Below, piece by piece: positions 16,190 to 48,680 of a stretch of 64,000 bases of DNA. Made by a program: the position numbers and the translations under genes. This DNA is from Acholoe squamosa (lineage: Eukaryota > Annelida > Polychaeta > Phyllodocida > Polynoidae): positions 12,524,395 through 12,588,394 of the forward strand of contig OX439049.1 in the NCBI GenBank assembly GCA_949317995.1, in the 5' to 3' direction. The notes beneath the pieces were generated by a model, which saw nothing but the letters and a program-made list of their open reading frames with translations, had not been told where the DNA came from and did no database searches. Numbering within the stretch: position 1 is the stretch's first letter; each line of letters opens with the position of its first letter.

Positions 16190-17185
16190 AGAATAACCTA
16201 TGCTGGATATACATGGAATGTAAAAAATGTCTTGACATTCAGCCTCATCTGATATGTCGAAGCATTAAATGGCCTGCTATATTACATGTCATGCAAACCT
16301 GTAGTGTGTTTGGTGTATTAGCAAGCAATGGCTAATAAAAATTGTTTTAGAGATACGAATACAACATCATGTTGAGCATAGGGACTGTCTGGAAAATTCA
16401 ATATAACTGTCTGTCTCTGGCATCTTTGAAGATCGAATGTTAATGCTAATTCCTTCTTTTCCATTACTACTGATTGTTACTCAACATTTTGCTTCTTTCG
16501 ATATATCACTTTCAAACTGGCTTTGTCTTCCCTTTTTTTTTTGTTTTTAGTTATTTCCCTTATGATATGATACTGGTATATAATTATTGCAGTAAAAAAA
16601 TGAAGACATAAGGTTCTGCCAAAGTAGGAAATATTTCATAATTGCTAGGTAATAGCTAGGTTTGCCGTGGTGTAAGTGGTAGGTGATTGTCAGATGGTCA
16701 TGGCACTTAATTCAGGTGCCAAAGCTGGATCATCTTAGGGGGTCCTATTTAAAGGAGCTCTGAGTTGGCTACATCCACCACAATGCTTACTTGTGGTGGA
16801 TGCTCGATTCTGTGCGCCTTTGAAGCTAATTAGTTTTAAAATTCTAGGATCTAAATCTGGATATAAGAAATCTACTTCTTCTGGACATATTTGAAGCTGT
16901 TGGCAAAGTGATTGACAAATGATCCATCGCCTCGAAATAATGTGATTAAGGCCTGCGCATGAAAATAGTTCTATGCAACCATCTGCTGACAAGACTATAT
17001 CAAACCCATTGTCGGATATTGTCTCCTTTTAGTGTACCTAGATTAGGCTACTTGAGGATTGGACTGTGTGGGCCTGATTAGCCTCATTGCTGAGACATGT
17101 ATAACAAGACACGCTCAGTGAGATAACGTTTCATTCCAGGCATGCCTAGTTAATACCAGGTTCTGTGACCAGGCTGACCCCTCCC
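16190..17185 (+). repeat. Segmental duplication block B, unit 1
   Basis: Aligns by eye with 29300-30438 joined to 35766-35950 (unit 2), 47655-47950 (unit 3) and 51735-51870 (unit 4). Landmarks are CATCTGATATGTCRAAGCAT (16247 and 29346), GATATTGTCTCC (17013) and TAGATTAGGCTACTTGAGG (17039). At 16996 the text GACTATATCAAACC is the uninterrupted target in which unit 2 has the 5.3-kb insertion. Homology stops near 17185, after AGGTTCTGTGACCAGGCT. Not coding. Confidence 0.75.
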
Positions 17186-19020: not shown

Positions 19021-19084
19021 TGAAAATTTTGTGGGTTTTAACATATAACATATGACATGTTAGGACATGTGACATGGACAAGGA

Positions 19085-19170
19085 GTGCCGATATCCATTG
19101 ATATCAGCACTCTTAGGAGGCTGATATCCATGGATATCAGCACTCCCAGGACCTGCAATATCGACAGGTA
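19085..19170. repeat. Short GATATC-rich palindromes
   Basis: TGATATCAGCACTC and TGATATCCATGGATATCAGC recur within 80 bp, forming overlapping palindromes. Function unknown. Confidence 0.6.
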
Positions 19171-21265: not shown

Positions 21266-24200
21266 CTTCTTGTGTGCATCATGTCAACCTATGTGTTCCT
21301 GCATTAGTGGCCTTTGAAGGGTAAAAACTTTCCAACTACCCTACAGGCTACACCGGTCTATATCATGCCCGAGGAAGTAGAAGTAGTCACTCCAGTGCTG
21401 ACGGCTGACAGCTAGGTCATCCAAGCAATTTCATTTCTTTCCATGGCCACCACAGGCTGCCTCCGGTCTGGTACATTGCCTAGGGTCAGTGTGCCAGTGG
21501 AGATGATATGGTATTTCTACTGACTAGCATGTTGGATTGGGTAACTGTCAGTTACGCAAACCAACTGAGGCTTAGGTATTTTTTCTTTATATCTTATCTA
21601 GCTCTGGTTTCTGTTGTGGTTGAAGTTTCTATTTATCATGTCGAGGAGGAGGAGCATTTTCCATTGACTAAAAGCATCAGGACTGGAATTGATCAGATTC
21701 CATCCACTTTATTTCCTGAAAATGAAAAAAAAGAAATTAACACAAAGCTGAATCAAACTCTTTTAATTAAATGCTGTTCCATTAAAACACTTTTGGTAAA
21801 GTATCCAATCTTTCTCTGTTCACCGACTGAAGGGCATCTATCTCTGCACAATCCATAATAAAACCCTGAAGTACTTAATCTCAATTGTCCTTCTAACAGC
21901 GATGTTCCTCATGACTAGGGTTCCCCATTGATAACTTATGTTTGAATTTCACCCTCCCATACAGCCTAACCTTTATTCTTGTCTGTTGAAAATTCTTCAA
22001 AATACATGTCTTCAATCAAACCACTACATTATTCAAAGCCTCCTTCATTTTCATTGAATAGTTCCTCCTTTATCACTTTATCACATGGATAGTGTGATGT
22101 TTGGATGGAGTGAGATGACAAAGGGCACTATTGGTTATCCTCTCAATCCCCTTTCCTCCATGATATCAAACATCTTAGGCCAGGATCCTTTACATAAAAG
22201 CTACGGCACTGCACCTACTTGAAATTATATTACAACCAGGGTTTAAATTATCACATTTGAATGATCATACGTATCTGAGTCATCAGGAACTTATTTATTT
22301 GTCCTGCAACTTGAGCTATTCATATTCTTTCAGAAGAACCTGGTAGATCTACTGGAGAATCTAAGGGAAATATTCACTGATATGCCCTTTTGTAGGCCAA
22401 GTTGCCTTTAATTAACCGATGAGCCCTTTGAGGGTGACATGGTACATTAATGTCAGATACAAACTCAATAGAGTTGATATACACCCAAAAGATCATCATA
22501 ATGTACTAATACTGACCTGAGTCGACTCAACATTACAGCATTGGTGATTATGATAACAAGGAAATATGAAGACAAATAATGTGGCCCATGAACGGGTTAA
22601 AAGCTGGATTGCTGTGCAAGTCATGCAGACTTTATGTGTTATTTGGGAATTTATGCTAACATTATGAAATATCTGGGTCAGCAACAGTAGGCCATGCTGC
22701 TCTGTCTTACCCTCATCAGTCAAAAACAGGTCTAAATCAGAAACTCATTTATTATTTTCAGATGGTCATCTAGCCTCCAGCCATGGATTCTCTCATACTT
22801 ACCTCAGTGTCTACCCATTAGCCAACAAAGTCCCTCGAGACTTTCGGAAGAGATGGAAGAGCAAGGGACTAATGAATCTTCTCCATGTCTGGCATGCATG
22901 CTATATATGCTGCTCTTATACCTTATTTGCAACTATGGCACTCAAGCATTAAGCCCCCAGGTTAATTAGGGTTGTTCATCAATATTGCACCTTTTGGTCT
23001 TGTGACTGCTGATATAATGGACAGTAAAATGGAGAAGTAGCTGGCATGTATACATGTTCAATAAGACTATAAACTGATGAAAGTGGAGCTTCATCAATCA
23101 GCCACAATTTCTTTCATGACCCACCAATCATTCACCAATCAGAAATCAGATAGGTAGCATTTTTGGACTCAAGGTTACCATAGAAGTCAGATTGAGATGG
23201 TTTCTTGTAAATTCTGCCATTAAAACCTGGCTCAAAAGGACTCTCCCTTCCCAGATGTCCACTTACCAGAAATGGCTGAGTAACTCATTGTGAGCAGGTC
23301 AGGGTACAGGAGCTGCTCCCTGGTGGCTATAAAGGGATGTGCACCAGCCCCTACATGGGCCAGTCACTACGAATCTTCTTGTCACTGGGTTGGTTGTCAT
23401 CCAGTTCCCCATAGTATAGACCATTAGGACAATACTATAACACCCTTTAACAAGTGGACTGTGCTGCTCAGTACCATGAACAGCCATGACTCAGCAGTTT
23501 GGTTTCTGATTAATATGGCTCTCTACTCAAGCATTCTCCACATCTCTATTCTTGATCCATCCTGTATCCCTTTTTCATTTTTTTTTTCATTTTCTTTATT
23601 TCTATTCAAAAACCCATCTGAAGACTATATTTCATGATCTCACTTAGAATATTCTAATTGAGGGTCACAGTTACTGATAAGAATCAGTTTTCAGTTTCTT
23701 TTTGTGGTCTCATTATAGTTATAGCACTTATTGGATAAAGTACTCCCTGTCTGAAAAAAGGACAAGAAAAGGTAGACTGTCTGAGTTTCAGCTAAATATT
23801 CAAGGACTCTTAAAAGCATTTTTTTATTTGTTGCCTATCATGTTGGGGTTTGTATTCTATGCTCCTATGAATATGGTTAGCCCCTGTACATAATTCCACA
23901 GAAATATGTTTCCACATTAATTGATGCACATGAGCTGCCAAGACCACATCCAAGACAAGCTATACAGAAACCTACACATCAAACTTTCACTCACGTCACA
24001 AGTCACACATGACCTTCTTGCTCTAGGCACACCCTATTGCTATGTGCTCACAATTGCTCAGGGGGTGGAAAGCAATTCCCTCAACAACAGCGGAGCAGCA
24101 CACAGTGCACAGAATGATTCATAAGGCTCAAATCTCATTCCAAGCAGGTCTAAGCTGAATTTTTTACGGGTCTAAAGTTGCCTGAGATTTTATGTTTAAA

Positions 24201-24518
24201 GAGATTAGGGAAGGTCCCATCTGCAGATCTAGCTGTAGTTGTTATCAATTTTCTACTTTACTAAAAGTAATCTATCTTTGCAAATAACCATTGTCTCCAA
24301 GAAAATACAACTTGACACTCACCAGTCTAAGAAAATAGGAAACCAGCAGGGATTTATGAATTGCATTTTGATATTTTAGCTCTGTCATGTATGGAAGATA
24401 TATATGGTAAAGAATATGATCTTTAACTCACATATATATGCAGATGTTGAAGGGGAGGTAATCCATTAATGTTATCCCCCTTGTAAAGCAGTGACATAAC
24501 TTTCAATATATTGGATCG

Positions 24519-24642
24519 CTAGGGAGATGTTCCAATAAGCCTTTTGCATACCATAGAGTTTAAGCAAGCTATTTATATATAAATAGCTTGCTTAAACTCT
24601 ATGGTAAGCAAAAGCAAAAGGCTTATTTGAACATCTCCCTAG
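24519..24642. repeat. Near-perfect hairpin within block A, unit 2
   Basis: Left arm: CTAGGGAGATGTTCCAATAA through AGCAAGCTATTTATA. The right arm is its reverse complement, with a small insertion (AGCAAA) and one or two mismatches. Units 1 and 3 carry only the right-arm text (for example TTGGAACATTTTCCTAGCT near 9160), so the left arm was made here by an inverted duplication. Confidence 0.93.
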
Positions 24643-25494
24643 CTATAGATTCTGGTTTTCTGAAAGCAAAGTTTTCCCCCTAACTCTGCTCCTCCTAAAC
24701 CTACCTCAAAAGGATTCCCCTGTCCCAGAGGTCCACTAAATGGTTGTGCCTAAGCAGTCCATTGTAAGCAGCTAAGTGAACAGGAGTTGCCCCCTGTGGT
24801 CATATAGGGACATGCAGCAATCCATTCATGGGCTGGTGAACACAAGTCCTCTTGTCCTGTCCTGGCCACGCTGTGGGAATACTAGTGTGACAACTCATAT
24901 ATGTGTTACAGTAAACCACTAGAGGTTATTTACAAGCTGTCAGACATGAAGGATTCTGCTTTAAATATCACATTTATTATTGAAATCATCTTTTTTATAA
25001 TTCTACTTTATCTAGACTAAAATCAAAAGAGCCATCAATTGAGCTTCGATGTCAAACATGTTATTGTTTAGGTTTATTTCCTTGCATTCAGATAAACTCT
25101 TTTTCTCTGTTGACTGAATTGTCATTTGGGTAAACTGAGATATCTTAAAGGACCCTTTTATCACAGCTACCTTCTGTTTTTAAAGAAGCTAGTATGGTAC
25201 AACTTGCACACATCTACTATCTGTAAGTGTGCATTCGGGAGAGTAGAACCATGCACAGACCTCCAAAAACAGCCCTGTGACTCCAAAAACACACATTTAA
25301 GGTACAACAGGAAAATATTTATTCCTTTCTTGATGTTCTTAAACTTTCCAACAAATTGAAAAGAAATCACGTGGACCATAGAGGCAAAGAACCTGAGAGA
25401 GAGTGCCTACATGATGATTTCATTGATGAGATGATGCTCAGCTTATCTGAATCAATAGCATCTAAATTACTTTGATTCGGGTGGTCTCAGAATC

Positions 25495-29299: not shown

Positions 29300-30438
29300 G
29301 CTTTGTGTAATAATTATCATGGAATGTTGAGAATGTCTTGAAAAACTAGTCCCATCTGATATGTCAAAGCATAAAATTGTATCCTGGTATATTTCATGTC
29401 GTGCACAGCTGTAGTATGTGCGCTGTATAGTAATAAGCAAGCAATGCCTAATGGAAATTGTTGTCATCTTTTAGAGATACTAAGGTAAAATCTTTCTATA
29501 CATAGCAGCTGTCTGGACTAGTCAATATCGATGTCTGTCTCTGGCATATGACTACCAACATCCCGCTGACTTAAGTAGATATATACTGCAACAAATTGAC
29601 ATCTTTGAAGGTGGAATTTAAATAATAATTCCCTCCTTTTCATTACCATTGTTGGCCACTAGATACCGTTGAATTGCTGACTCAACATTTTGCCATTTTT
29701 GATATGTCACTGTCAAACTGTCTTCTTTTCTTTGGTTTTAACTTTTAACTCTTCATGATATAACACTGTTACGTCATTATTGGAGTAGACAAAATAAAGG
29801 GATAAGATTCTGCCATAGTTTGAAATATTTCATAATGTCACAAAGTGGTAGAGTAGGTCTGTGTCAGCTGGCACATGTTGCATTAAGTGAGTTATAGGGC
29901 CAAGCTGCCAACTACCCAAAGATTCAGAATCCCCTTAACAGGGTCAATATAGGGGTCAGGAGGGTCACACAGAGGGAATCCTTACAGGGGAAGACACCTC
30001 CTCCAGAGGCTAATGGTGCTGATTTGGGTGGAGGTCGATGGCCAGAAGTAGATTTCCAGTGGTGTAATTTGTGGGTGGCTGTCAGATGGCCATAGCTCTC
30101 AATTCAGTTTGGGTACCAAAGCCAGATTGCAACATAGAAAGAGGAGCTCTTTTCTTTTCTCTTTGCAGCATTTAAAATGGCATATTTCTATCTAAGAAGA
30201 GATCAAGATTTATTCAAATGCATCATTATCTTTCTCATCAGTTCTATTAAAAGCAGAAGAGTATCAGAATTTTAACTAAAGGATCTAAATCTGAAGATAT
30301 GAAATCTACTGATGTTGTACAAATGTGAAGCTGTAGGCAAAGTAATTGACATAGAATCAATGCCCTAGAAATAAAGTGCTTAAGGCCTATGTATAAGAAT
30401 AGTTTTATACAAAGGTCTGCTGACAAGATCCCACTATA
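29300..30438 (+). repeat. Segmental duplication block B, unit 2, left part
   Basis: Homologous to 16190-17000 (unit 1) and, at its end, to 47665-47780 (unit 3). It stops exactly at CCCACTATA (30430-30438), where the 5.3-kb insertion begins, and resumes at 35766. Confidence 0.78.
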
Positions 30439-30569
30439 GTGGTGTTAATTTGGTGTTTAGCAACCAAACACCAGTGTTTAGGATCTAAACACATAGCTAA
30501 ACACATTCTTGTCCCACTTTTCGAAACACAATTTTTGGATAAACATGTTTAACATTAAACATGTGTAGG

Positions 30570-30910
30570 TAAATGGTGTTTAGCTCTTGGAGGTGTTTAC
30601 CTTTGGGAAGTGTTTAGATTGATAGTGTTTAGCTTTAAGAGGCACTTAGATAGAAGTTGTTCAGCATTAAAAGGCATTTAGATAGATAGTGTTTAGCTTT
30701 AGGAGGCATTTAGATAGAAGGTGTTCATCATTAACAGGCATTTAGATAGATGGTGTTTAGCTTTAGGAGGCATGTAGATAGAAAGTGCTTAGCTTTAGCA
30801 GGTGTGTAGGTAGATGGTGTTTAGCATAACAAGGCGTTTAGATGGATAATGTTTAGATTAAGGAAGCATATATAAGTGGATAGTGTTTAGATTTAAATTG
30901 TGTTTATATG
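30570..30910 (+). repeat. Tandem array, about 32-bp units
   Basis: About ten diverged units around the consensus TAGATAGATGGTGTTTAGCT plus TTAGGAGGCATT. The unit contains GTGTTTAG, the same word that dominates the ends of the host element, so the array probably grew from the element's own subterminal sequence. Confidence 0.85.
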
Positions 30911-31029
30911 GATAGTTTGGGGTCAATACTTTATTTCTCATCATTTCAACATTTTTTTATCATCTCCTTGTGTAATTGAAGTACATCTGCCCTGATCTGG
31001 TGATGCAGAAATAATTTTATTTTGCACAT

Positions 31030-31361
31030 TCAGGATGGAGAGGAGGGTGGACTGAGGGGACAAAAGGATGAACTGAGGAAGTAGATGATGGACTGAGGGG
31101 GTAGATGATGGACTGAGGGGGTAGAGGACAAACTGACGGGATAGAGGACAGACTGATGAAGTAGAGGATGGGCTGAGGGGGAAAAGGACGGACTAAGAGG
31201 ATAGAGGACAGACTGAGGGGGTGAAAGGACAGACTGAGGGGGTAGAGGATGGACTGAGGGGGTAGAGGACGGACTGAGGGGGTAGAGGACAGACTGAGGG
31301 GTAGAGGATGGACTGAGGAAGTAGATGACGGACTGATGGGGTAGAGGACGGGCTGAGGGGG
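31030..31361 (+). repeat. Tandem array, 20-bp units, left
   Basis: About 16 units of GACTGAGGGGGTAGAGGACG with substitutions. Sixty bases equal 20 codons, so long minus-strand frames with a repeating SPSSTPSVRPLPPQS peptide appear; these are composition artefacts. The same repeat in the same orientation continues at 34806-35185 on the other side of the inner unit. Confidence 0.93.
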
Positions 31362-31384
31362 AAGCGATATACGAACGAGGGCTT

Positions 31385-31411
31385 CGTGCATATAGTGGCA
31401 CTATATGCACG
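31385..31411. repeat. Perfect 13+1+13 hairpin (left)
   Basis: CGTGCATATAGTG, one G, then the exact reverse complement. The right-hand copy has C as the single centre base, as expected for an inverted pair. Confidence 0.95.
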
Positions 31412-31795
31412 AGGAAAAGGTGGTCACAGGACAACACAAGGGAAGGATGGTCACAGGACAGCACAAGGAAAAGGTGGTCACAGGACAGCACTGGGAAAAG
31501 GTGTTCACAGGACAGCATGAGGAAAAGGTGGTCACAGGACAGCACAAGGGGAGGCGGGTCACAGGACAAGGAACAAGGAAAAGGTAGTTATAGGACTGCA
31601 TGAGGGGAGGGTGGTTACAGGACTGCATGAGGGGAGGGTGGTTACAGGACTTCATGAGGGGAGGGTGGTTACAGGACAGCATGAGGGGAAGGGTGTTCAC
31701 AGGACAGTAACATGAGAGGGTGGTCACAGGACAATGCTATAGTGAGGGTGGTTACAGGACAGAACGAGGAAGGGTGGTTACAGGACACACAATTC
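31412..31795 (+). repeat. 27-bp minisatellite, left arm (opposite strand to main array)
   Basis: About 14 units of the type GGTGGTCACAGGACAGCA plus CAAGGAAAA or TGAGGGGAG. This is the reverse complement of the units after 31795. The strand switch is at about 31790-31800, around CACAATTCCTTGTG. Confidence 0.9.
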
Positions 31796-34745
31796 CTTGT
31801 GTTGTCCTGTGACCAGCCCTTCCTCCAGTTGTCCTGTCGGCACCCATTTTCCTTGCAGTCCTGTGACCAGCCTTTCCATGGGGAGTTCTGTGACCAGCCT
31901 TTCCTAACCTTGTCCTGTGACCACCCTTTCCTCACTTTGTCCTGTAACAACCCTGCCTCATGTTGTCCTGTGACCACCCCCTCATGATGTCCTGTGACCA
32001 CCCCTACCTCATGTTGTCCTGTGACCACCCCTGCATCATGTTGTCCTGTAACCACCCCTGCCTCATGTTGTCCTGTAACCACCCCTGCATCATGTTGTCC
32101 TGTAACCACCCCTGCCGCATGTTGTCCTGTGACCACCCCCTCATGTTGTCCTGTAACCACCCCTGCCTCATGTTATCCTGTGACCACCCCTGCCTCATGT
32201 TGTCCTGTAACCACCCCTGCCTCATGTTGTCCTGTAACCACCCCTGTCTCATGTTGTCCTGTAACCACCCCCTCATGTTGTCCTGTAACCACCCCTGCAT
32301 CATGTTGTCCTGTGACCACCCTCTCATGTTGTCCTGTAACCACCCCTGCCTCATGTTGTCCTGTAACCACCCCTGCCTCATGTTGTCCTGTAACCACCCC
32401 TGTCTCATGTTGTCCTGTAACCACCCCCTCATGTTGCCCTGTAACCACCCCCTCATGATGTCCTGTAACCACCCCTGCATCATGTTGTCCTGTGACCACC
32501 CCTGCATCATGTTGTCCTGTAACCACCCCCTCATGTTGTCCTGTGACCACCCCCTCATGTTGTCCTGTGACCACCCCTGCCTCATGTTGTCCTGTGACCA
32601 CCCCTGCCTCATGTTGTCCTGTGACCACCCCTGCATCATGTTGTCCTGTAACCACCCCCTCATGTTGTCCTGTGACCACCCCCTCATGTTGTCCTGTGAC
32701 CACCCCTGCCTCATGTTGTCCTGTGACCACCCCTGCCTCATGTTGTCCTGTGACCACCCCTGCATCATGTTGTCCTGTAACCACCCCCTCATGTTGCCCT
32801 GTAACCACCCGCTCATGATGTCCTGTAACCACCCCTGCATCATGTTGTCCTGTGACCACCCCCTGCATCATGTTGCCCTGTAACCACCCCCTCATGTTGT
32901 CCTGTAACCAACCCCTCATGTCCTGTCCTGTGACCACCCCTGCCTCATGTTGTTCTGTAACCACCCCTGCATCATGTTGTCCTGTAAACACCCCTGCATC
33001 ATGTTGTCCTGTAACCACCCCCTCATGTTGTCCTGTAACCACCCCTGCCGCATGTTGTCCTGTGACCACCCCCTCATGTTGTCCTGTAACCACCCCTGCA
33101 TCATGTTCTCCTGTGACCACCCCTGCCTCATGTTGTCCTGTAACCACCCCTGCCTCATGTTGTCCTGTGACCACCCCTGCCTCATGTTGTCCTGTAACCA
33201 CCCCCTCATGTTGTCCTGTGACCACCCCTGCATCATGTTGTCCTGTGACCACCCCCTCATGTTGTCCTGTAACCACCCCTGCCTCATGTTGTCCTGTAAC
33301 CACCCCTGCCTCATGTTGTCCTGTAACCCCCCCTCATGTTGTCCTGTAACCACCCCTGCCTCATGTTGTCCTGTAACCCCCCTCATGATGTCCTGTAACC
33401 ACCCCTGCCTCATGTTGTCCTGTAACCCCCCTCATGTTGCCCTGTAACCACCCCCTCATGATGTCCTGTAACCACCCCCTCATGATGTCCTGTAACCACC
33501 CCTGCATCATGTTGTCCTGTAACCACCCCTGCCGCATGTTGTCCTGTGACCACCCCCTCATGTTGTCCTGTAACCACCCCTGCCTCATGTTGTCCTGTGA
33601 CCACCCCTGCCTCATGTTGTCCTGTAACCACCCCTGCCTCATGTTGTCCTGTAACCACCCCCTCATGATGTCCTGTAACCACCCCTGTCTCATGTTGTCC
33701 TGTAACCACCCCCTCATGTTGCCCTGTAACCACCCCCTCATGATGTCCTGTAACCACCCCTGCATCATGTTGTCCTGTGACCACCCCTGCATCATGTTGT
33801 CCTGTAACCACCCCCTCATGTTGTCCTGTAACCAACCCCTCATGTCCTGTCCTGTGACCACCCCTGTCTCATGTTGTCCTGTAACCACCCCCTCATGTTG
33901 CCCTGTAACCACCACCTCATGATGTCCTGTAACCACCCCTGCATCATGTTGTCCTGTGACCACCCCCTCATGTTGTCCTGTAACCAACCCCTCATGTCCT
34001 GTCCTGTGACCACCCCTGTCTCATGTTGTCCTGTAACCACCCCCTCATGTTGCCCTGTAACCACCACCTCATGATGTCCTGTAACCACCCCTGCATCATG
34101 TTGTCCTGTGACCACCCCCTCATGTTGTCCTGTAACCAACCCCTCATGTTGTCCTGTGACCACCCCTGCCTCATCTTGTCCTGTAAACACCCCTGCCTCA
34201 TGTTGTCCTGTAACCACCCCCTCATGTTGTCCTGTAACCACCCCCTCATGATGTCCTGTAACCACCCCTGCATCATGTTGTCCTGTAACCACCCCTGTCT
34301 CATGTTGTCCTGTAACCACCCCCTCATGTTGCCCTGTAACCACCCCCTCATGATGTCCTGTAACCACCCCTGCATCATGTTGTCTTGTGACCACCCCTGC
34401 ATCATGTTGTCCTGTAACCACCTCCTTATGTTGTCCTGTAACCAACCCCTCATGTCCTGTCCTGTGACCACCCCTGCCTCATGTTGTTCTGTAACCACCC
34501 CCTCATGTTGTTCTGTAACCACCCCCTCATGTTGTCCTGTAACCACCCCCTCATGTTGTCCTTTAACCACCCCCTCATGTTGTCCTGTGACCACCTCCTC
34601 ATGTTGTCCTGTGACCACCCCCTCATGTTGTCCTGTGACCACCCCTGCCTCATGTTGTCCTGTGACCACCCCTGCCTCATGTTGTCCTGTGACCACCCCC
34701 TCATGTTGTCCTGTGACCACCCCTGCATCATGTTGTCTTGTGACA
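31796..34745 (-). repeat. 24/27-bp minisatellite, main array (about 115 units)
   Basis: Written on the + strand, units are CTCATGTTGTCCTGTAACCA plus CCCC (24 bp), or the same with a TGC/TGT insert (27 bp). The main variable sites are A/G in TGTRACC, the insert (TGCC, TGCA, TGTC or absent) and TTG/ATG. Higher-order blocks exist: CCAACCCCTCATGTCCTGTC recurs at about 32908, 33832, 33984 and 34441, and a segment near 32509 recurs near 32638. Because 24 and 27 are multiples of three and the units lack stops in several frames, open frames of up to 376 codons appear on both strands (for example 32173-33303 minus and 31960-32883 plus). None is a gene. Confidence 0.96.
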
Positions 34746-34755
34746 TCCTTTTCCT

Positions 34756-34782
34756 CGTGCATATAGTGCCACTATATGCACG
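34756..34782. repeat. Perfect 13+1+13 hairpin (right)
   Basis: CGTGCATATAGTG, one C, then its reverse complement. Mirror partner of 31385-31411. Confidence 0.95.
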
Positions 34783-34805
34783 AGGAGCTCATTCGTATAT
34801 CATCG

Positions 34806-35185
34806 GCCGGGCTGAGGGGGTAGATGACAGACTGAGAGGATAGAGGACGGACTGAGGAGGTAGAGGACGGACTGAGGGGGTAGAGGACGGACTGAGGGGG
34901 TAGAGGATGGGCTGAGGGGGTAGAGGACAGAATGAGGGGTTGGAGGATGGACTGAGGGGGTAGAGGATGGACTGAGGGGGTAGAGGAGGGACTGAGGGGG
35001 TAGAGGATGGACTGAGGGGGTAGAGGACGGACTGAGGGGGTAGAGGACAGAATGAGGGGGTAGAGGAGGGACTGAGGGGTAGAGGATGGCCTGAGGGGGT
35101 AGAGGATGGACTGACGGGGTAGAGGACAGACTGACGGGGTAGAGGATGGACTGCAAGGGTAGAGGACAGACGGGGTAGAGGACAG
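34806..35185 (+). repeat. Tandem array, 20-bp units, right
   Basis: About 19 units of the GACTGAGGGGGTAGAGGACG type, same orientation as 31030-31361. The last units are shortened. Minus-strand frames of 130-154 codons here are artefacts of the repeat. Confidence 0.93.
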
Positions 35186-35189
35186 ACAA

Positions 35190-35765
35190 CATAGATCCTG
35201 ACTTTTTTCAAGTTTCCTCTCTATACTTTTTTTCAAAATCTTATAAAGTAGATTTCATATCTGAAACTACAGAATCGGGCTTCTTTGTAATATACAGAAT
35301 TATGGTTATAAAGGTTACTGTACAGTATATTATTTACAACAAAAAAAACGTACCACTACTATGGAAATGTAGAAAAATTGTTATTCTATTATATCAGGTG
35401 TCATAATCAAAGGGAAGTGATGATTAGCTACTTGACTTTGATAAAGTTCTTTTTCATGAAGTTAGAAATGTCATGCCATCCTTTTTTCTTGCCAATTCCA
35501 TACCCACAGTTTTCATACCCAAGAGATTGCTAAACATCTATGATGTTTACCTTTTGAATATATGTTTAAAACTAAACATGTACAGAATGGATGTGTTTAA
35601 ACCTAAACACCTAAATACTTGGATAAGTAAGTGTGTAAGTTTATGAAAAGGTGTCTAGAATCTGAGGGCGTTTAGCTGCAAGTGTTTAAATATCATAGGT
35701 GTGTAGGAATTACACAACATGTAGATAATTTGGTGTGTATCATCAAATGCCATTTTTGCAGTACA
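35190..35765. other. Right shoulder of the 5.3-kb element
   Basis: AT-rich with several TAAACATGT and GTGTTTAAACCTAAACACC words, as in the 890-bp family, ending CCATTTTTGCAGTA. No gene. Confidence 0.6.
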
Positions 35766-36690
35766 TATATCAACCGAAACGTTGGATATTGTCTCCTTTC
35801 ACTGTACCTAGATTAGGCTACTTGAGGATTGGACTATAAGTGAGCCTAAATAGCCTCATTGCTGAGACATGTACAACAAAAACTCTCATTGAGATATGTT
35901 CCCTTACAGGCCTGCCTAGTTAATACCAGGTTCAGCAACCAGGCTCCCACTCTCAGCAATAACAGTGTTACTGAAAATCGATACAAGAATCTGATGCAGT
36001 TTATCAAAAATAGGATGAGTTTGACCCATTTTGTATAGATCTAGAGCTCCTGCATATCTCACTGAATATGAAGCTTATAAAGCAATGGATTTGATTTTTT
36101 GGGATCCGTCTTATATCACCCTGAGGAGGAACAATATATATTTATAGTACATTTAATTACAAGACTCTCATTTAGGCTGATATGGCAAGGCAGAAACCAC
36201 CCATTTCAGAATATAACAAGAGTTACTCACCCATTTCTAAAGCCATCTGGGAACATAATTTGACCACTTGGGATGTAGACAAGGGGGCTAATTATTCCGG
36301 TACCAAGTGGAAGAGATCTTAAAATGTCCCTGTGGGTTCTAGCCAAGCTGTCTAATCAATATAATACCAAAACCAACAACTCAAAATGTTACTCACATTC
36401 AGGACCACTAGATTGAGTATTCCTTTTCAAAGCTTATAATGACATTTAGTACATCCATTGTCTAGATTATAGATTGCATTTTCTCATCCATCACAATATG
36501 TATCCTTTTTAACCATTTAAGGGCTGTTAATGCATTACGTATGTTGGTAGGCCTGATGCATAAATGTAGCTCTGACAATTAACATGCCGAGGCTATGCTG
36601 ACCCTTTGGGTCTAATACATTCCCAGGAGATTGGCATGACACCCTGTTAAAGTGCTGGTGAGTGGGATTGCCAGTATTTCAAAGGTGCAT
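35766..36690 (+). repeat. Segmental duplication block B, unit 2, right part
   Basis: Matches 47776-48680 (unit 3) throughout: GATATTGTCTCC, TAGATTAGGCTACTTGAGG, TCTAGAGCTCYTGCATATCT and GACCCTTTGGGTCTAATACA. The first 180 bp also match units 1 and 4. Confidence 0.8.
36513..36680 (+). repeat. Small repeat with CCNTTTAAGGG-type end
   Basis: Same element as 48492-48697: ACC-TTTAAGGG start, ATGCATTA, TGCATxAATGTAGCTCTGAC and GACCCTTTGGGTCTAATACA. It is part of block B; relatives outside the blocks lie near 19750 and, inverted, at 58370-58510. Confidence 0.6.
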
Positions 36691-37135: not shown

Positions 37136-38345
37136 GGATTTGCGAGATTAGATAGACAATCTCTTGACGATAAAGGTAATATTAAAACAGGGGGTGGATT
37201 GTGCTTATTTATAAGACATGGTATTGACCATGACTACTGTATAATTATGAAAACCTAAATTTTTCTGAAGGACACATTGAGATACAAAATGTATTGATAT
37301 CCAAGAAGCACATGAAACCTATACTTATTTTCAATGTTTATAGACCTCCCGAGGAAAGATTTAAGCAAACTTTTATTGATTCTCTGATTGATACTTTGTT
37401 TGATGTCGATGGCAGGGATAATATTGAGATTGTACTTATCGGTGATTTTAATTTTTACATTAAGGAGGACTCTGACTTGGAAAATCAACTCATCAATAAG
37501 CTTAAACCTTTAAAGGCGATTGAGAATATTTCAACGAAAATCTTTAAGAAAATGTCCCTCCACAGCCCTAATAAGTTAGTATGATTATGTAACCTTTCTT
37601 TTGCTACTGCTACTGTAACGCTAAAATGGAAAATCTCTCAAGTCACCCCATCCATAAAAGGGAAAATTCAAAACTGGTTAACATCTTTAGACCTATTTTT
37701 CTAATTCCTAGCCCTGTAAACTAATTGAAAAAAATTGTTCACTCAAGAGTTTATTGATTTAATTTCAAAGAAAATGTCATGGCCATAGTTTAGTAAATAC
37801 ATTAATGAAACTCACGGATGATATCAAAAGGAACTTAAAATATAGGGAATTCAACTGTTGCTGCCCTTATAGATTTATGTAAGGATTTAGACACCGTAGA
37901 CCACTCTACTTCTTGTTAAACTTTATAATTATGGTATAGGATCAGATTCCTACCACTGGTTTGAAAATTATCTTCAAGACAAGCTGGTCTGAGGTGTCCC
38001 CCAGGGTTCCATATTGGGCCCTTTGCTTTTTTGACAAAATCAAGGATGTGATTAAGTGTGTTAAAAAACTGTCAAATACATTTATATGGAGATGACACTG
38101 TCATTTATTAATCTAATAATAGCATTGTTGTTATTAAGGCTAATTTGCAAAAGGATCTGGAAATGTGTAGTACTTGGTGTGAACAAAACAAATTGTCTGT
38201 TAACATTGCTAGGAGGCTAAACACACTGTCTGCCCATATCAGTATGAAAGATACACTGTTACAATGAGTACCTAGCTACAAATATTTAGGTGTCATTTGA
38301 GATCCCTTATTGAGTTATAATTTACATATAAAAATCAGGTTAAAA
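37136..38345 (+). pseudogene. CR1/Jockey-type non-LTR retrotransposon: endonuclease and RT remnants
   Basis: In order on the + strand: ARLDRQSLDDKGN and GGGLCLFIR (37142-37230, APE-type endonuclease), then ILIFNVYRPPEERFKQTF and EIVLIGDFNFY (37300-37460, the NVYRPP and GDFN motifs). After a gap comes the RT: WKISQVTP (about 37629), GIGSDSYHWFENYLQDKLV with GVPQGSILGPLLF (37935-38027), LYGDDTVIY (38081-38107; the usual catalytic YADD box reads YGDD, two Asp kept) and YKYLGVI (about 38278). Sequence between endonuclease and RT fingers is deleted (37584-37620), and at least five frame changes or stops occur. Dead copy. Its YLGV region resembles that of the fragment at 25495. Confidence 0.87.
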
Positions 38346-39519: not shown

Positions 39520-42500
39520 CAGGGAGTGGGTTCGGACATAAGTAAGAACAGGGAGTTTTAGGAGGAGGAGCTACAAGAAAGTAACATTCATTTGAGCCAG
39601 TATGGATTGTTTCCCTACTCTATTTCACTCTGGTTGGGAAGTGCTGAGCAAAATTGAATAAAAGCATTCATCAGATTCCATCCACTTCATTCCCCTGAAA
39701 ATGAAAAATGAGCACAAAACAGAATCAAACTCTTTTAATTAAATGGTGTTCCATTAAAACAGATCACTTTTGGTACAGTGTTCAATCTTTCTTAGCTCAC
39801 TGACTTGAAAGCACCGTTATATCCTTAATGCATGATAAAATGCTGAGGCTCTTAATTTGCATTGGTTATTCTATCAGTGATGTTCCCCACAACTACGGAT
39901 CCCCATTGATAACTTATGTTGGAACTTCATCATCTCATACAGCCTAACCTTCCATCTTGTCTATTGAAAATTCCAATCTTCTAAATGCATGACTTGCATC
40001 AAATCAATACAATATTCAAAGCCTCCAACGGTTTCATTGAATACTTCTTCCTTTATGGCATGGATAGGGTAATATTTTAGATGGTGTGGGATGACAAAGG
40101 CTACTACTTTTTTCTTCTAAGTCCCCTTTCCAGCAACAGACATCTTGGGTCAGGATCCTTTACAGTAAAACCGGTAGAAGCTAAGGCACTACACTTTGTT
40201 AGACTGATATTAGAGCCAGTATTTGAATGATCAATATCTGATCAGTTTTTGTTATAAGGAGCTTATTTCTTTATGTCCTATGACTTTAGCTATTCATAAA
40301 CTTTCAAGAAGCACCTGATAAATCTACTAAAGAAGAAAACAACCTGAGTCAGACATTCAAAAATATGTCCTTTTGCAGGCCAAGTTATGTCCTAGCTATT
40401 TGAGAATTTATGCTGACATCGCTAAATATCGGTTTTGTCAGGAACATATGGTAAAGCCATGCGTCTCTGCAATATCCTCATCAGACGAAAGCAGGCCTAA
40501 ATCAGAAGACTCATTCATTATGGTCACATGAGTCATCTAGCTTCCAGCCACGGATTCTCTCATACCTACCTCAGTGTCCTTATGATATCAAGGCTCATCA
40601 CTAGAACCATTAGCCTATAAAGTCCCTCCGGACGTGTGGAGGGAAGAGCATGGAACTAATGAATCTTTTTTTGTGGAGCATCCATCCTATATGCTGCACT
40701 TATTTGTTAGAATGGCACTTAAGCCCAGAAGAGTTAATTAAGATGATTGTGGGTCAATAGATGTGAGAAACGAATACAAAATCAAATCTCATTACCATAG
40801 AAGTCACATTGAGAGATATTCTTATAAAATTCTGCCATTCAAAATCTACATGCTTCATACAACCTCCTATCATCATAAACCTGCCTCTAAAGGACTCTCA
40901 CTTCCAAGAAGTCTACTCACCAGAAGTGGCTGAGTAGCTCATTGTGTACAGGAGCTGCACTCCAGTGGCCATAAAGGGATGTGCACCGACCCTTACACGG
41001 GCTAGCCACTATGATTTTTATTTTCTTGTCAGTGTGTCGGTTGTCATCTGGTTTGCCATAGACCACTAGGACAGTACTATAACACCCTATGACAAGTGGA
41101 CATTGCCGCTCGGTGCCATGAACAGCCATGTACATAATGTCAGACTCAGCAGTTTGGATTCTGATTTATATGGTTCTCTACTAAGGCATGCTCAGCTTCT
41201 CTGTCCTTGATCCATCCTGTATCCCTTTTTTTCTTTAATTTTTCTTCAAATGAAACTATGCTACATGATGTCAAACTATTCTACTTCAGGGTCACAGTTT
41301 CTAACATTTTGATTAAAATATGAACAACCCCTGTACATCATTGCATGCAAATATGTTTTCTTTCCAATTGATGCACATGGGATGCCAAGACCACATCCCA
41401 GAAAACTGCTATAGAGACCTACACATCAAATTTTCAGTGACATCACAAGTTACACATGGCCTATTTACCCTCGGCACGTTCTATTGCTATGTGCTCACAA
41501 ATGCTGAGGGGTGGAAAGCAATCGCCACAGCACAGTAGAGCAGCACATAGTGCACAGAAGGGCTAATCATGCTCAAACATCATTCCAAGTAGCTCTAGGT
41601 TAGATGGAATATTTCACATATGTAAAGTCAACTAGGATTTTATTAAAACATGTCAAGCGCTATATCTCCCATCTGTAGATTTGGCTGCAGTGGCCACCAG
41701 TGATTCATTTCTGTAAAAGGAATATCAATGCTCTTTTCAAGCAACCAGTTATTTCAGAAAACCCACACTTTGATAACAAAAACAATGGATACTACCAATA
41801 CAATGGTTGCATATCTCAAATGCCTTTTACCTTGTGTCTGGGGGGTGTATCAGTGGACAATATTCAAAAGTAGCATTGGTATTTGGTGTCGGTTGTCAGT
41901 GATTTCAGTGATGTCCCATAGCTGACCAGATTACTGGTTCAGGGATTTTGTTTATTGGTTTGGTCTGGGGTTAAAGTCACGTTTTGTGGGTAGGGATGAA
42001 CTACTTGTCACCTACAGACACCTAGTAGTGAGAAATGACGTGCAATTGCTGTGCAAATCTCCCATGTCCATGACAACAATAATGCAGAAGGTTTGGGATG
42101 TGCTTTGTCCAATGAGTGCAAAACCATGTTGCATCTGTTGTTTAAAATACCCATGTTTAGGATAAAGTGCATCTAATACAGGGTCTTGTGCTTATAAAAT
42201 ATTCATTGTAACTGCTCATTTTTTTGTTTTAGTTTCGTGTGTCCTAGAGAACAATTTAACAACCAGTGCATTTACGATTCTAATAGATTAAGAAACCAGA
42301 CGGGATTTACAAATTGCTATTAAGAATGATTCTATTTCTTCTATGTATTGAAGGTATTAAAGTTAGAGTATGTTCAGTTCTATAACTCACATAATAGTAT
42401 ATTTTATACAGAAGTTGAAGGGCTGGTACTCCATTGATTTTATATCGCTTGCTTGGAATCGGACTCAGGGCTATACAAAAGGCCTATACAAAGATCTTCC

Positions 42501-44230
42501 TAGCTTTAGATACTGGTATTCTGAAAGCAAAGTTTTCCCCAAATCCTGCTCCTCCTAAACCTACCTCAAAAGGATTCTCCTGTCCCTGAAGTCCACTAAA
42601 CGACCATGTTTAAGCAGCCCATTGTAAACAGCTCAGTGTACAGGAGCCACCCTCTGCGACCATAAAGGGGCATGCAGCAAATCATTCATGGGCTGGTGAC
42701 CAAAGATCCAGCTGTCCTAAACAGCCAGGCTAGGGGAATACTAGTGTTACAACTCGTATGTGTCAACATGAACTATTGGAGGCTATTAACAAGGGGTCAG
42801 ACATAAAGGATTCTGATTTAGTAATGATTTGTTGAACTTTCCATTATGAAGTTGCACATAAGAGAATCTTTTCTAGACTAAAACCAAAAAAGCTTGACAG
42901 AATTGAGCTTGACAGAAATAACTCAAATTTTTAAAAATGCAACTGTTTATCATGGTAATGGGCTTCAACAGACAAACTGCCATGGTAGTTTTTTACAGAC
43001 CTATTATGTCCCATGGTGTCAACCATCCAGCTGTCAATGTTGGTGAGTGGACTTCCGGGAATGGGAGAGTTCTTTTGATTCTAGTTTAGGAGGAATGGGG
43101 TTACGAAGATGCATGTCTTTCAGAACTGCAAGGTTTATGGGGGAGATGTTTCAATGGGACTTCCATTCCCACTAGGTCCAAGAATGTTATCTCTACTTTT
43201 CTGAATGCAAGTAGGAGGACAGAACATGACTGGAATCCCTTGATTGATGTCTGGCTGAAATGTGTTTTTCACTTTGGGTTTTAAATGTCAATGTCATGGG
43301 GCCATAGGTACAGAGGTAGTCAATGGGAATCATCGGTTATTTCAGGCCTCAATTTTCCAAAGCCATATAAACGTTCTCTAGCATGTTTAGGTATTTTACC
43401 ATCATTGAAGTTGATGATAATAATTAATCGTATGGGAAATTCCTAAACAGACTAAATTGAGTTTTTAGACTCCCCAGACCGAGTTAGTGAAAATGCCATA
43501 CAGGAACCTTTAGAGGAATCCCATGGCACCAGGTCCATGATAAGGGAATTGGACCATAGAGACAGACAAACTCTGAGATACTGCCTGCATGATAATTTCA
43601 TTGATGGGCTGATGTACAGCTTATCTGTATCAATAGCATCTAAATTACTTTTATTTGTGTGGTCTAAGAACCAAAGTCACTTTTTCTGGATTTTATGCTA
43701 GATGAGTATGAGTTATCATCCAACAGTGCTGTAAAGTAAGAACAGAAGGCCACTACAAAAGTAAAGGTCACTATCTATCCATATCTGACCTACTTTCTGT
43801 GTCGTAAATTTGAGGAGCCATTTGGGAACCCTGATAGTGTCACACTCTGTGTTAAATACAGTGAAATTGTACCCAAGGGGCCTGCCTGAACCCTATTCTT
43901 GGATTAATGATCTCTGTCTTGGCTGCCTGAATGATATACTGCCATCACAGAGGGTACAACAAAAATAACTACCTGCTCTAACTTATAGCTGAATTGAAAC
44001 GTCTAATACACATATCATTTAGAACAGTGACATGGAAAATGTGAGACAACTGTGGTTACAGAACAACCTTTATCCAAATATTACTATGATCTGAAAAGGG
44101 ATTTTTAGTGGTGTCTATAAATACCATAGATGTTTTGGTGTATTTCTAAATTTCAATGGTGCTGGGCTAGCCTAGTGTAGGGCTTGCATCTTGTTGTAAT
44201 ATAGCTGTTTTATCAATACCACACTATACT
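39520..44230 (+). repeat. Segmental duplication block A, unit 3
   Basis: Aligns with unit 2 almost to its end, including the parts on both sides of the unit 2 retrotransposon (43560-43680 and 43740-43960). It therefore shows the empty site of that insertion. The 200-bp module occurs at 40870-41130 and 42550-42790, and part of it again inverted at 43030-43150. No gene; frames such as 41320-41538 match short frames in unit 2 (23921-24124) only because the DNA is repeated. Confidence 0.74.
43030..43150 (-). repeat. Inverted partial copy of the block A module
   Basis: Read on the minus strand, TCCTCCTAAAC, ATCAAAAGAACTCTCCCATT and GGAAGTCCACTCACC follow the order of 42545-42600. It makes a 480-bp-spaced inverted repeat present only in unit 3. 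Confidence 0.75.
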
Positions 44231-44923
44231 AGGGTAGATTAACCTAAAGACAACCACATACCTTGAGTCGTCCACCTACCACCTTCCTTTTCTCATCTTT
44301 ACAGGTATTCTGTGTATCTAAGCCCCTAGTATAGTAAAATATAGATGTTATAATACCCCATGGGACGATCATTCGGGATATATTAAATAAGTGTCATAGT
44401 GTAACAATGCACTAAAGTAGCCATGTTTGACTTGTTTTTATCATGACCAACTGCCAATTTCTTCAGATATCTCTAACTTTGGTTGCAGACTTTAAGCTCT
44501 AGAACGGCTCATAGAAATCATATGTTGACTCTAAGAATAGATACATATCTTTATCAAATGATGGTATTAACAAAAATACAGAAATACTAAATATATTCAA
44601 TTTAATACTCATTTTCTAGAACACACCAATTTCACCATGAGACGTCCACAATTTCACCTTGAGATGTCCACGAGTTTCCTGATGGTTTCATGACTTGTAT
44701 AGAGTAGAAACCACTTATGACAATAGATTTTATCTCTAGATATATCCGGGTTTATGCTTAGCATGGTTTTAGATACAGTATTTCAGTATAATTACTACAT
44801 GTAAGGTAGCTCATTTAGTACTGCTATCCTATGTATTAATGTGAATGATAATCATACAGGGTTGATTCTTCTGGAATTGGCATTCTCCTAGATTAAGTCG
44901 CTTAATAATGACAATAAAAAACG
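44231..44923. other. No gene seen
   Basis: AT-rich. Two nearly identical phrases, ATTTCACCATGAGACGTCCA and ATTTCACCTTGAGATGTCCA, stand at 44628 and 44651. Nothing else recognised. Confidence 0.45.
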
Positions 44924-45409
44924 TTTAGGTCGCTAACAAAATTGTGGAGGCAAAAAAAGGAAAGCTACCAGTTTTTAGCGACCAGTTTTAGCGATCAGTT
45001 TTTAGCAACCAGTTTTTAGCGACCAGTTTTAATGACCTCTGTGAGAATACGGGGAGCATTGTGGGCCACCTGTCAGTTTTTACAGAATGAAAATTGGAGT
45101 ATTATTAAGGAAAATATAAAGCAAAACGTGATACTACCCAGCTTTTTTTTAAGTACAGATCCCCTATCTTGTTACTAACTTACTTATCAAAATGTGGAGG
45201 GGAGTCTGTTATGGAATAAGCCATATTCTTGTGTTCAAGAAATAAAAAATAATATACAAATTCCTAACCCCCCAAAAAAAAACCAAGCCCCAGTTTTTTT
45301 TTATAGTCTCCCCTTAAGGGAAACCCTTTCCCCCTGGATTCCTTTTCACTGTGCTTGAGTGACCATTGGGAGAGGGTTCAGGAAAAAATCTATTGTTTTT
45401 TTATATGAA

Positions 45410-45600
45410 GAACCTATGGTATTTAAAATTCTATGGGATCCTTTTTTCATGAATTACCTATGGTATTTAAGATTCTAAGGTTTTTATTATTATTTTTTTG
45501 GTCGCTTAGTATGAATAACCTATGGTACTTATAATTCTATGGGATCCCCCTTATATGAATAACCTATGATATTTAAAATTCTTTTGGGTTTGGAAAAGTA
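45410..45600 (+). repeat. Short tandem array, units about 60-65 bp
   Basis: Three to four diverged units containing AACCTATGGTATTTAAAATT and CTATGGGATCC. Confidence 0.75.
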
Positions 45601-45699
45601 TGAATGGTGCCTGTGGCCCTCGGTATGTAGGGCCTCCGGCCCTATATATCGAGGGCCGCAGGCCCCTTATATATACCCAGCAAATTGTCGTTATCTGTC

Positions 45700-46310
45700 G
45701 CCATGATTGGTCGTCAATGGTGACTCCTTTCTGAGTGATAACTCACTGCGTCATCTTTCGCCACTGTGTGTCAGTCTCACATGGCATGGCAATTTATCAC
45801 AACAGTCACCAACATGATCTCACTCACTGCGTGAGTATGTGCCACCCCTTGTCATCCCTCACAAAGCATGGTGACTTATCACCACCATCGCCAACATGGA
45901 TCTAACTCAGTGCGTGAGTATGTGCCACTGCCTGTCAACTCTCACTCAGAATGGCGGCTTATCACAAGCATCGCCAACATGGATCTGACTCACTGTGTGA
46001 TTATGTACCACTCCCGTGCCACTGGCATCAACTCTCACACAAAATGGCGACTTATCACTACCATTGCCAACATTGGTCTCACTCAATGCGTGAACTTGTG
46101 TCACTCCATGTCAATGCTCTCTAAGGATTGCATCATCTGTCACTCACTCTCACTAAGAATGGCAACTTATCACCAACATTGCCAGCCTTTGTCTCACTCA
46201 ATGCGTGAGTTTGTGTCACTCCAAGTCAATGCTCTCTGAGGATTGCATCATCTGTCAGTCACTCTCACTCACAGTGGCAACTTATCACCACCATTGCCAA
46301 AGTTGTTGAG
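45700..46310 (+). repeat. Degenerate satellite, left part, units about 105-115 bp
   Basis: Units contain GGCGACTTATCACCACCATC, GCCAACATGGATCT and ACTCACTGCGTGAGTATGTG, in about five copies. The 123-codon frame at 45868-46239 runs through them and is rejected as a gene. Confidence 0.75.
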
Positions 46311-46679
46311 ACAGCACCACTGTTCAACATGTAGCCTATCTAGGAAGTGTGGGCATAAAGTATAAGTCCCATACGTATCAAATGTGCTTTGTTTCACACT
46401 GATTTCCATGTAATACTTCAGAGTTGAATCAAACAAGATTATATAGAGAGAATATCAATTGAATTTAGATAGAGGTATCTCTAAAATGAAAGCAACTATC
46501 CATAAACACCTTTTCTCTGGTTACAGGAAAAATACATAGGGAAATATCAACATGAACACCTTGTCTGTGGTTAGAGGGAAGATACATATGGCAATACCTT
46601 CTCTGGCAAAACATACTTTGATCTGGCAGATGTGAGGCTGCATGATTACCAATGTCGATGATCACGAGCTTTTCATCTA

Positions 46680-47390
46680 ACAAGGTGAGTGATCACTAGC
46701 GTCGCCATCACTGGTGGGTCTGAGTGATCACCACTCTTGCCATCCATGATGAACCTGCGCTATGACGTGGTGCGCGTTTCATCTAGCGAGGTGAGTGATC
46801 AACCGCCTTGCCATCCCTGGTGAGTGTGAGTCATCACGATCCTCGCCAACCGTGGTGAACATGTGCCATGGCATGGTGTGCGTTTCATCTAGCGAGGTGA
46901 GTGATCACTCGTGTCGCCATCCCTGGTGAGTGTGGGTGATCAAGATCCTCACCATCTGTGGTGAACCTGTGCTATCACGAGGTACGCATTTTATCTAGCA
47001 AGGTGACTGATCACAATCCTTGCCATCCGTGGTGAATGTGCATTATGACGTGGTGTGCGTCTCATCTAGCGAAGTGAGTGATCACTCATGTCGCCATCCC
47101 TGGTGAGGATGAGTGATCACTCATGTCGCCATCCCTGGTGAGGATGAGTGATCACGATCCTCGCCATCCCTGGTGAACATGTGCTATGACGAGGTGCGTG
47201 TTTCATCTAGCGAGGTGAGTGATCACCCACGTCGCCATCCCTGGTGAGTCTGAGTGATCACCATCCTCGCCATCTGAGGTGAGGCCATGTGATCACCACC
47301 ATTGCTATTCCTGGTGATCTTGTGCTATAGCGACGTCGTGTTCCATCTAGCGACATGTGTGAGCCACTTCACACAGGTTGACGAGGAGTC
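46680..47390 (+). repeat. Degenerate satellite, right part, units about 110-120 bp
   Basis: Units contain GTGAGTGATCACCATCCTCG, CCATCCCTGGTGA, GTGCTATGACG and GTTTCATCTAGCGAGGTGAG, in about six copies. TCACCATC-TCGCCATC is shared with the left satellite in the same orientation, so both may derive from one ancestor. The word TAGCGA also occurs at the element's ends. Confidence 0.78.
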
Positions 47391-47444
47391 ACGACAATTT
47401 GCTGGGTAGTGGCCTTCTGCCTCTATATATAGGGGCTGAAGGCC

Positions 47445-47654: not shown

Positions 47655-48680
47655 CATGGCCCAAGTGTGAAACTGTAGGCAAAGGGATTGACATAGAATT
47701 AATGGCCTAGAAATAATGTGTTTAAGCCCTGGACATAGAAATAGTTCCATACAAAAGTCTGCTGACAAGATCCCACTATATCAATCCGATGGTTAGATAT
47801 TGTCTCCTTGCACAGTACCTAGATTAGGCTTTTTGGGGGTGGGACTGTGTGGGCCTGATTAGCCTCATTGCTATATAACACACACAGTGAGATAATGTTC
47901 CCTTCCAATTCTGATCTAGTTAATACCAGGTTCTGTGACCAGGCTCCCACCCTCAGCAGTAGCAATGTTACCAGCAATTGACAGAAGAATCTGATGCAGT
48001 CAATCAAGTATAGGATGAGCTTCAACCAATTTGTATAGATCTAGAGCTCTTGCATATCTCACTGGATATGAAGCTTATAAAGCAACTAGCATGCTTTGTT
48101 TTGGAATCAGTTTTATTTCATCCTGTGGAGGAACAATATACTTATAGTCTATTTAATTACCAGACTAATATGGTGATGGGGCAGAAACTACCCATTTGAG
48201 AATATACATATGAGTTACTCACCCATTTATAGAGCCAACTGCAGACATCATTTTTCAAGGAGGCTAATTATTCAGCTACCAAGCAGAAGAGATCTTAAAA
48301 TGTCCCTGTGGTTTCTAGCCAAGCTGTCTAATCAATAAAACGCCAATACCAACAACTCAGCATGTTACTCATGTACAGGACGACTAAATCGATTCTTCCT
48401 TTTCAAAGCTTATAGTCTATCCCTTATCTAGAATATGAATTGCATTTTCTCATCCGTTTAGAGTGAAATCACAAAAGGAATCTTTTCTAACCCTTTAAGG
48501 GATGCTGCTGCATTAATGCATTATGTACATTTGTAGGCAGGATGCATGAATGTAGCTCTGACAAGTAACTCGCCAAGGCTATGCTGACCCTTTGGGTCTA
48601 ATACATTCCCAGCTGATTGACATGACCCTCCATTTAAGTGCTGGCTTGCAAGCAGAATCGCCAGCAATGGGTATGACAAC
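47655..48680 (+). repeat. Segmental duplication block B, unit 3
   Basis: Continuous where unit 2 is split: CCCACTATATCAATCCGATG at 47772-47791 is the empty site of the 5.3-kb element. Downstream it matches 35766-36690 closely. Confidence 0.8.

Follow-up and report, generated by a model that had tools for sequence, protein, structure and literature searches.

A minisatellite-bearing transposon with a second repeat-bearing transposon nested within it in the polychaete Acholoe squamosa

The window, i.e., the whole 64,000-nucleotide stretch of DNA that was analysed (Acholoe squamosa, assembly GCA_949317995.1, contig OX439049.1, positions 12,524,395 to 12,588,394 of the forward strand), consists of about four diverged tandem units, and self-comparison of the window revealed 5.3 kb of extra sequence in unit 2 versus units 1 and 3. 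This insertion (30439..35765, + strand) comprises an outer transposon, termed el1, and an element nested in it. Unit 1 aligns over 16846-16994 and 16996-17175 with 30280-30428 and 35766-35945, respectively, and unit 3 aligns over 47662-47780 and 47777-48644 with 30320-30438 and 35766-36658, respectively; in the same self-comparison the empty sites fall at 16994..16996 in unit 1 and at 47777..47780 in unit 3. The inner edges of the flank matches overlap by TATA (30435-30438 and 35766-35769), so that the ends of the insertion can be placed to about 4 bp, and the ends as defined by the family (left ends of 19 and right ends of 4 further copies) lie at about 30440 and 35763. The initial annotation had described natural empty sites in units 1 and 3, and this was borne out: both units read across the site. 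Unit 1 has a 5-bp gap directly outside the target, ACTATATCAA, which is itself unbroken. Unit 4, which is more diverged, is also without the insert. Insertion into unit 2 after the tandem duplication is the simplest reading of this arrangement; alternatively, the insert may have been lost precisely from the other units.

From left to right, el1 consists of an arm, a 32-bp array, a spacer, a 20-bp array, a hairpin, 27-bp forward repeats, 27/24-bp reverse repeats, a hairpin, a 20-bp array, a spacer and an arm, and the tandem arrays of 32, 20, 27/24 and 20 bp that had been claimed for the locus are all present at the positions given for them. The left arm (30440..30612, + strand, as are the other parts of el1 unless noted) carries the family left end CACTGTTAATTTGGTGTTTAGC, the first bases of which are mutated in el1. 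The 32-bp array (30613..30896, 8.8 units) is enriched in GTGTTTAG-like motifs; exact GTGTTTAG occurs nine times forward and twice in reverse in 30439-31045, where the shuffled mean is 0.03, and only once in the right part of el1. A short spacer, U1 (30917..31045), has partial matches in 10 of the 20 other copies and is followed by the left half of the 20-bp array (31046..31358). The right half (34809..35187) has the same orientation, and its consensus differs from that of the left half at 1 of 20 positions (the consensi were drawn from 12 units on the left and 13 on the right), which suggests that the halves derive from one interrupted array. Segment U2 (35188..35540), which has no match in 20 other fetched copies, leads to the right arm (35541..35763), which ends in GCAGTA (GCAGTG in the family).

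The nested element is a foldback transposon of 3450 bp, termed I1 (31359..34808, + strand), and it is flanked by a 9-bp target site duplication, GGGCTGAGG, at 31350..31358 and 34809..34817 (+ strand). Between a left terminal hairpin (31384..31412, + strand, z -4.5) and a right terminal hairpin (34752..34786, + strand, z -7.4), I1 contains a left arm of fourteen 27-bp repeats (31407..31792, + strand) and an inverted, expanded right arm of about 114 repeats of 27/24 bp (31793..34744, - strand). The two copies of the target duplication agree at 9 of 9 positions, and the joined flanks restore one 20-bp unit in phase. Of all left-right 9-mer pairs between the two array halves, about 1% are identical, and a chance origin of the duplication is therefore unlikely, although the target is repetitive.

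A genome search with 31362-31560 returned 191 matches for I1; scoring covered 40 of 640 candidates, from which 20 loci were extracted, these being the best-scoring loci and not a random sample. Both I1 ends (GGGAAGCGATATACGAACGAG... and ...CTCGTTCGTATATCATCGGCC) were present at all 19 loci outside the window, where the complete copies measure 602-1269 bp (median 836). The 9-bp duplication is exact in 16 of these 19 copies and agrees at 8 or more of 9 positions in 17, the remaining two having 7/9 and 6/9. Forward-then-reverse 27-bp blocks were found in el1 and in 18 of the 19 other copies; in L070 the two spans overlap. Arm units, counted by motif with at most 2 mismatches, number 14 forward and 114 reverse in el1 versus 6-34 and 6-20 in the 19 others. 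Identity averages 88% among 107 right-arm core units (the core omits the first six units, and the unit-splitting rule merged a few) and 72% among left-arm units, and the first five right-arm units are 62% alike. Exact repeats of 191, 188 and 161 bp within the array point to what appear to be recent block duplications. The 27-bp array arrived by nested transposition, and the copy of I1 in el1 reached 3450 bp through growth of one arm. Capture of an existing array, which the initial annotation had allowed for, was rejected for the 27-bp block as an event of local recombination, because the block is I1, with its own ends at 19 other loci and with 9-bp duplications. The same annotation had tied the minisatellites to the ends of the outer element; for the 27-bp repeat this tie did not stand, as the repeat occurs elsewhere, inside its own transposon family. 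Read as protein, the 27/24-bp array gave no match among 1565 candidates on the + strand and, on the - strand, two matches that are possibly driven by the repeats; the better of these has E 9.6e-16 at 31% identity.

The outer element also belongs to a dispersed family. The left end CACTGTTAATTTGGTGTTTAGC gave 404 matches at up to 3 mismatches in the 1.48-Gb genome versus 5 for the reversed pattern, and a search with 30400-31400 gave 161 matches; among the matches listed outside the window, 35 start at query base 43-46, and many others are array matches. Twenty copies were fetched as the best matches to this query, and because the query contained arrays the sample is biased towards array-bearing copies; L035/L038 and L041/L046 share flanks and represent two pairs of duplicated loci rather than independent copies. 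The left arm is present in 19 of the 20 fetched copies, and the left ends are exactly CACTG in 15 of these 19 and preceded by TA in 14. Right arms were recognised in five of the 20, one of them (L040) truncated; CAGTG stands at the right ends of L032, L035, L038 and L045, and both ends of el1 itself are mutated. The target duplication of the outer element at el1 is ambiguous (TA/TATA), and the further copies whose right end could be read (L032, L035/L038 and L045) showed no clean target duplication.

Repeats of 32 bp were found in all 20 fetched copies, in arrays of 89-3212 bp. The 20-bp type of the window is present in 11 of the 20 and the same or a related 20-bp type in 17, the largest single 20-bp array measuring 7344 bp (L050). 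The 32-bp array lies ahead of the 20-bp array in 17 of 17 copies, and the 20-bp array lies ahead of the forward 60-bp array in all five copies with long forward 60-bp arrays (L034, L040, L042, L043 and L044); L049 has two 20-bp types in reversed order. The forward arrays of L040 and L043 and the reverse 60/51-bp arrays of the same copies are inverted relatives (scores 136 and 121 versus maxima of 50 and 49 in 50 shuffles), and an internal foldback structure therefore exists in the outer family. In L040, a MITE of an 890-bp family with CACTGCAAAAAT ends lies at about 1304-2172, within the 20-bp array, indicating that outer-family arrays receive more than one transposon. L036 contains a lone I1 hairpin end at 1422-1484 (97% over 63 bp) near the outer-family left end; it has no 27-bp arrays and is a remnant or a solo end.

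The two pairs of recently duplicated copies allowed array length to be compared at like loci. Between L035 and L038, whose flanks agree at 98.7% and 94.3%, the array indels measure 32, 19, 32 and 120 bp, and between L041 and L046, whose left flanks agree at 98.3%, they measure 64 and 21 bp (indels of 15 bp or more). All six indels in the two pairs lie within arrays, and the length changes are mostly of whole repeat units (four of the six; two are not). These comparisons indicate that array growth occurs in place in the outer family, and slippage or unequal exchange would be its probable cause. In the wider comparison of copies with the same ends, which the initial annotation had proposed, array lengths likewise differ between copies.

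The 20-bp repeat was searched for genome-wide, with 38 of 91 candidates scored, and occurs in at least 16 separate places. Seven of eight listed places that were examined have the family left end nearby, and to that extent the proposed tie between the minisatellite and the transposon ends held for the 20-bp repeat; it failed at the eighth, C9 (4.96 Mb; L051 and L074), where the 32- and 20-bp arrays are long and no left end is present in about 1.9 kb upstream. The C9 array is a possible released array. At C11, the 20-bp repeat covers, among the matches listed, much of 73367342-73394039, with gaps, and a 2-kb read (L072, C11 73393900-73395900) contains the repeat throughout. Thirteen probes were placed from 73398 to 73520 kb, followed by nine more. 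Probes one to seven (to 73416 kb) showed the same 20-bp repeat, the eighth (73420 kb) a related type and the other five none; among the nine further probes, the related 20-bp type was found at 73420.5 kb, the 32-bp repeat at 73421.0 kb and neither at the other seven. A family left end, TACACTGTTAATT, adjoins this 32-bp repeat, and on the opposite side a 60-bp forward-type array comes next. The probes, the left end and the 60-bp array thus place about 50 kb of 20-bp satellite between family modules at C11, a length sampled in part, through the listed matches, the one 2-kb read and seven 121-base probes. Across the genome, these results support the view that the transposon acts as a satellite-DNA nursery, with the 32-bp repeat in 20 of 20 fetched copies, arrays of differing length and the roughly 50-kb array at C11.

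The window also contains copies of the 890-bp family, at 54029, 54920 and 57355, with CACTGCAAAAATGG ends and TA flanks; TA stands on both sides of two insertions of this sister family. At 54029-55813, two of these MITEs lie head to tail, with GCAGTG directly abutting CACTGC at the junction and a single TA on each outer side; in appearance the pair is a tandem dimer that was either transposed or joined as a single unit. Over 129 columns, el1 is 71% identical to the 890-bp family in its left arm, with the same order of motifs, a score reached by 0 of 100 shuffles. The right arm is marginal, with about 14 terminal bases shared and a score reached by 2 of 100 shuffles, and two non-array interior stretches are shuffle-like (74 and 99 of 100 shuffles reach their scores). 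El1 thus does not have the matching interior and both matching ends that define a member of the 890-bp family. The claim that the ends of el1 match this family was only partly right, with the left arm related and the right arm marginal; nor was el1 swollen from 0.9 kb to 5.3 kb as had been proposed, since it belongs to a separate sister family with arrays in every fetched copy and I1 accounts for 3.45 kb. The 890-family end had 0 matches in viral contigs and 0 in the genome-contig collection, and 23 contigs of the viral-contig collection had a single 16-mer match each.

Three arrays hold the end-region motif of their own element, namely GTGTTTAG in the 32-bp array, CCTCGTG in the 27-bp arrays and TAGCGACC in the 14-bp arrays of a second element in the window; this sharing was seen for the 32-, 27- and 14-bp arrays and not for the 20-bp or 60-bp arrays. 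CCTCGTG, with one mismatch allowed, occurs 89 times in I1 versus a shuffled mean of 11.6 and a maximum of 18. Such arrays fit amplification of putative transposase-binding sites, and binding sites of this kind are discussed for Galileo in the excerpted text of PMC4079207.

Altogether, the locus is very probably a CACTG-ended outer element with ordered minisatellites into which I1 inserted and in which one I1 arm then expanded. On this reading, a DNA transposon with CACTG ends, itself non-autonomous and one of a family bearing minisatellites in a set order, entered a TA-rich site in one unit of the tandem duplication; the foldback element I1, with its hairpin ends and its 27-bp arrays in inverted orientation, then entered the 20-bp array with a 9-bp duplication, and one of its arms afterwards grew from about 10-20 to about 114 units. 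Mobilisation may have depended on autonomous relatives elsewhere, and some arrays may have begun as amplified terminal-region motifs resembling transposase-binding sites. It is extremely unlikely that a single transposon generated every array, even the 27-bp block between the hairpins, through amplification and inversion on the spot: the inverted mid-element pairs of L040 and L043 (60-bp forward versus 60/51-bp reverse) show something comparable, but at 19 further fetched loci I1 has its own ends and mostly 9-bp duplications, comparison of its 27-mers with the 60-bp arrays gives scores in the range of shuffles, and the duplication where it breaks the 20-bp array is perfect over 9 bp.

It is also very unlikely that the outer element is a member of the 890-bp family that was invaded and swollen; the left-arm identity with its shared motif order and the shared right terminal bases speak for such an origin, even with the right arm marginal overall, but the outer family has a left end of its own with 404 matches, the non-array interiors are shuffle-like in the comparison, and sister families with common terminal motifs fit better. 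The possibility that ordinary minisatellites were hit by, or recombined into, transposons that had no role in their growth is considered unlikely. The long C9 arrays, upstream of which about 1.9 kb showed no left end, would agree with it, as would the examination of ends at only 8 of 16 listed 20-bp places; however, on many chromosomes the same arrays lie beside the same end, the 32-bp array invariably precedes the 20-bp array (17/17), and the C11 array is flanked by family modules. Beyond the origin of el1 as a CACTG-ended element that received I1, we tentatively propose, with somewhat more doubt than confidence, that the outer family acts as a satellite incubator with a heritable layout, usually in the order 32 bp, 20 bp, 60 bp forward, middle and 60/50 bp reverse, whose arrays reach about 50 kb, host transposons, stack and may be released. 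In this view the arrays also serve as landing sites (I1 in el1 and the 890-bp MITE in L040), so that satellites of unlike origin are stacked, and these may be released later on decay of the ends. The origin of satellite arrays is a standing question, and here the arrays of one family in one genome range in size between roughly a hundred bases and about 50 kb; with empty sites, a nested duplication and paired copies, the rates and steps of satellite birth could become directly measurable rather than being deduced from old arrays.

Termini of the form CACT(A/G)...(T/C)AGTG mark CMC/CACTA transposons. The outer element has this terminal motif (CACTG...CAGTG), subterminal direct and inverted repeats and a preference for TA, and is tentatively assigned to CMC/CACTA; I1, with a target duplication in the 8-11 bp range (9 bp), long inverted tandem-repeat arms and minisatellites, is a candidate Mutator-like or foldback element. 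Both superfamily assignments are tentative, no transposase for either family having been seen in the sequences examined. Satellite seeds in DNA transposons are already known from the excerpted portions of PMC4079207, PMC12628747, PMC9659126 and PMC8978399, and the following comparisons extend to the excerpted portions of each source. Tetris of Drosophila virilis is a non-autonomous foldback element whose arm tandem repeats expanded into satellite arrays, and it is similar in its 8-10 bp target duplications and in array-length difference between alleles (PMC4079207); however, Tetris has one repeat type of about 220 bp, whereas the outer family has several unlike arrays (32, 20 and 60/50 bp) and el1 stacks two repeat-bearing transposons. 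CAC...GTG ends with a 2-bp target duplication are reported for CACTA/CMC elements (PMC6004678), the duplication occurring in some animal forms; the likeness of the outer element to these lies in the CAC...GTG termini and in the subterminal direct and inverted repeats (PMC6004678, PMC8978399). From Chenopodium, a satellite array is known in an element of CACTA-like type (PMC6004678, PMC8978399); the outer family differs in having several array types in recurring order, up to about 50 kb, and no transposase seen. Among Mutator-like elements, Rehavkus has 9-bp and Phantom 8-10-bp target duplications, with minisatellites listed, and I1 resembles both in these respects (PMC6446971), but in I1 nearly the whole element is a pair of inverted arrays bounded by hairpins, with no transposase recognised. 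The miDNA4 MITE of Xenopus and other tandem-repeat MITEs have an internal satellite of variable copy number (PMC12628747, PMC9659126) and resemble the outer element as short TIR elements with an internal satellite, but carry one satellite per element and no nested second repeat-bearing element. The excerpts of open-licence literature that were searched describe neither a single family combining several unlike arrays in a recurring order nor the stacking of one repeat-bearing transposon on another with a demonstrated target duplication, which is not proof of absence.

The second layered element of the window lies in unit 3 (44920-47655) and carries TTTAGGTCGCTAA as its end motif on either side, directly oriented 14-bp AGCGACCAGTTTTT arrays close to each end, and an interior hairpin pair with inverted CCCAGCAAATTGTCG that bounds arrays of 83/115 bp and 106 bp. 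Arrays with the same consensus were found in L032 (7730-9226) and, partly, in L050 (9212-9898), and its inner block is therefore probably dispersed too. That its arrays (45.7-47.4 kb) are mutual inverted copies was rejected, as their score of 30 equals the highest among 100 shuffles. Scans of the window for tRNAs and against Rfam (gathering threshold) found nothing. An open frame at 26-946 resembles the terminal portion of a Ty3-type integrase, its matches to rve and SH3_Tf2-1 each falling below the Pfam cut-off, and a frame at 37234-37584 has a sub-threshold match to Exo_endo_phos_2, of the endonuclease/reverse-transcriptase family (E 0.00057). Tandemly repeated blocks at 6387-9839, 21689-25492 and 39562-43933 are about 70-80% alike and contain many short frames on both strands that match between units. 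At 19081-19145, a 33-bp palindromic unit present twice forms a strong hairpin (z -8.5).
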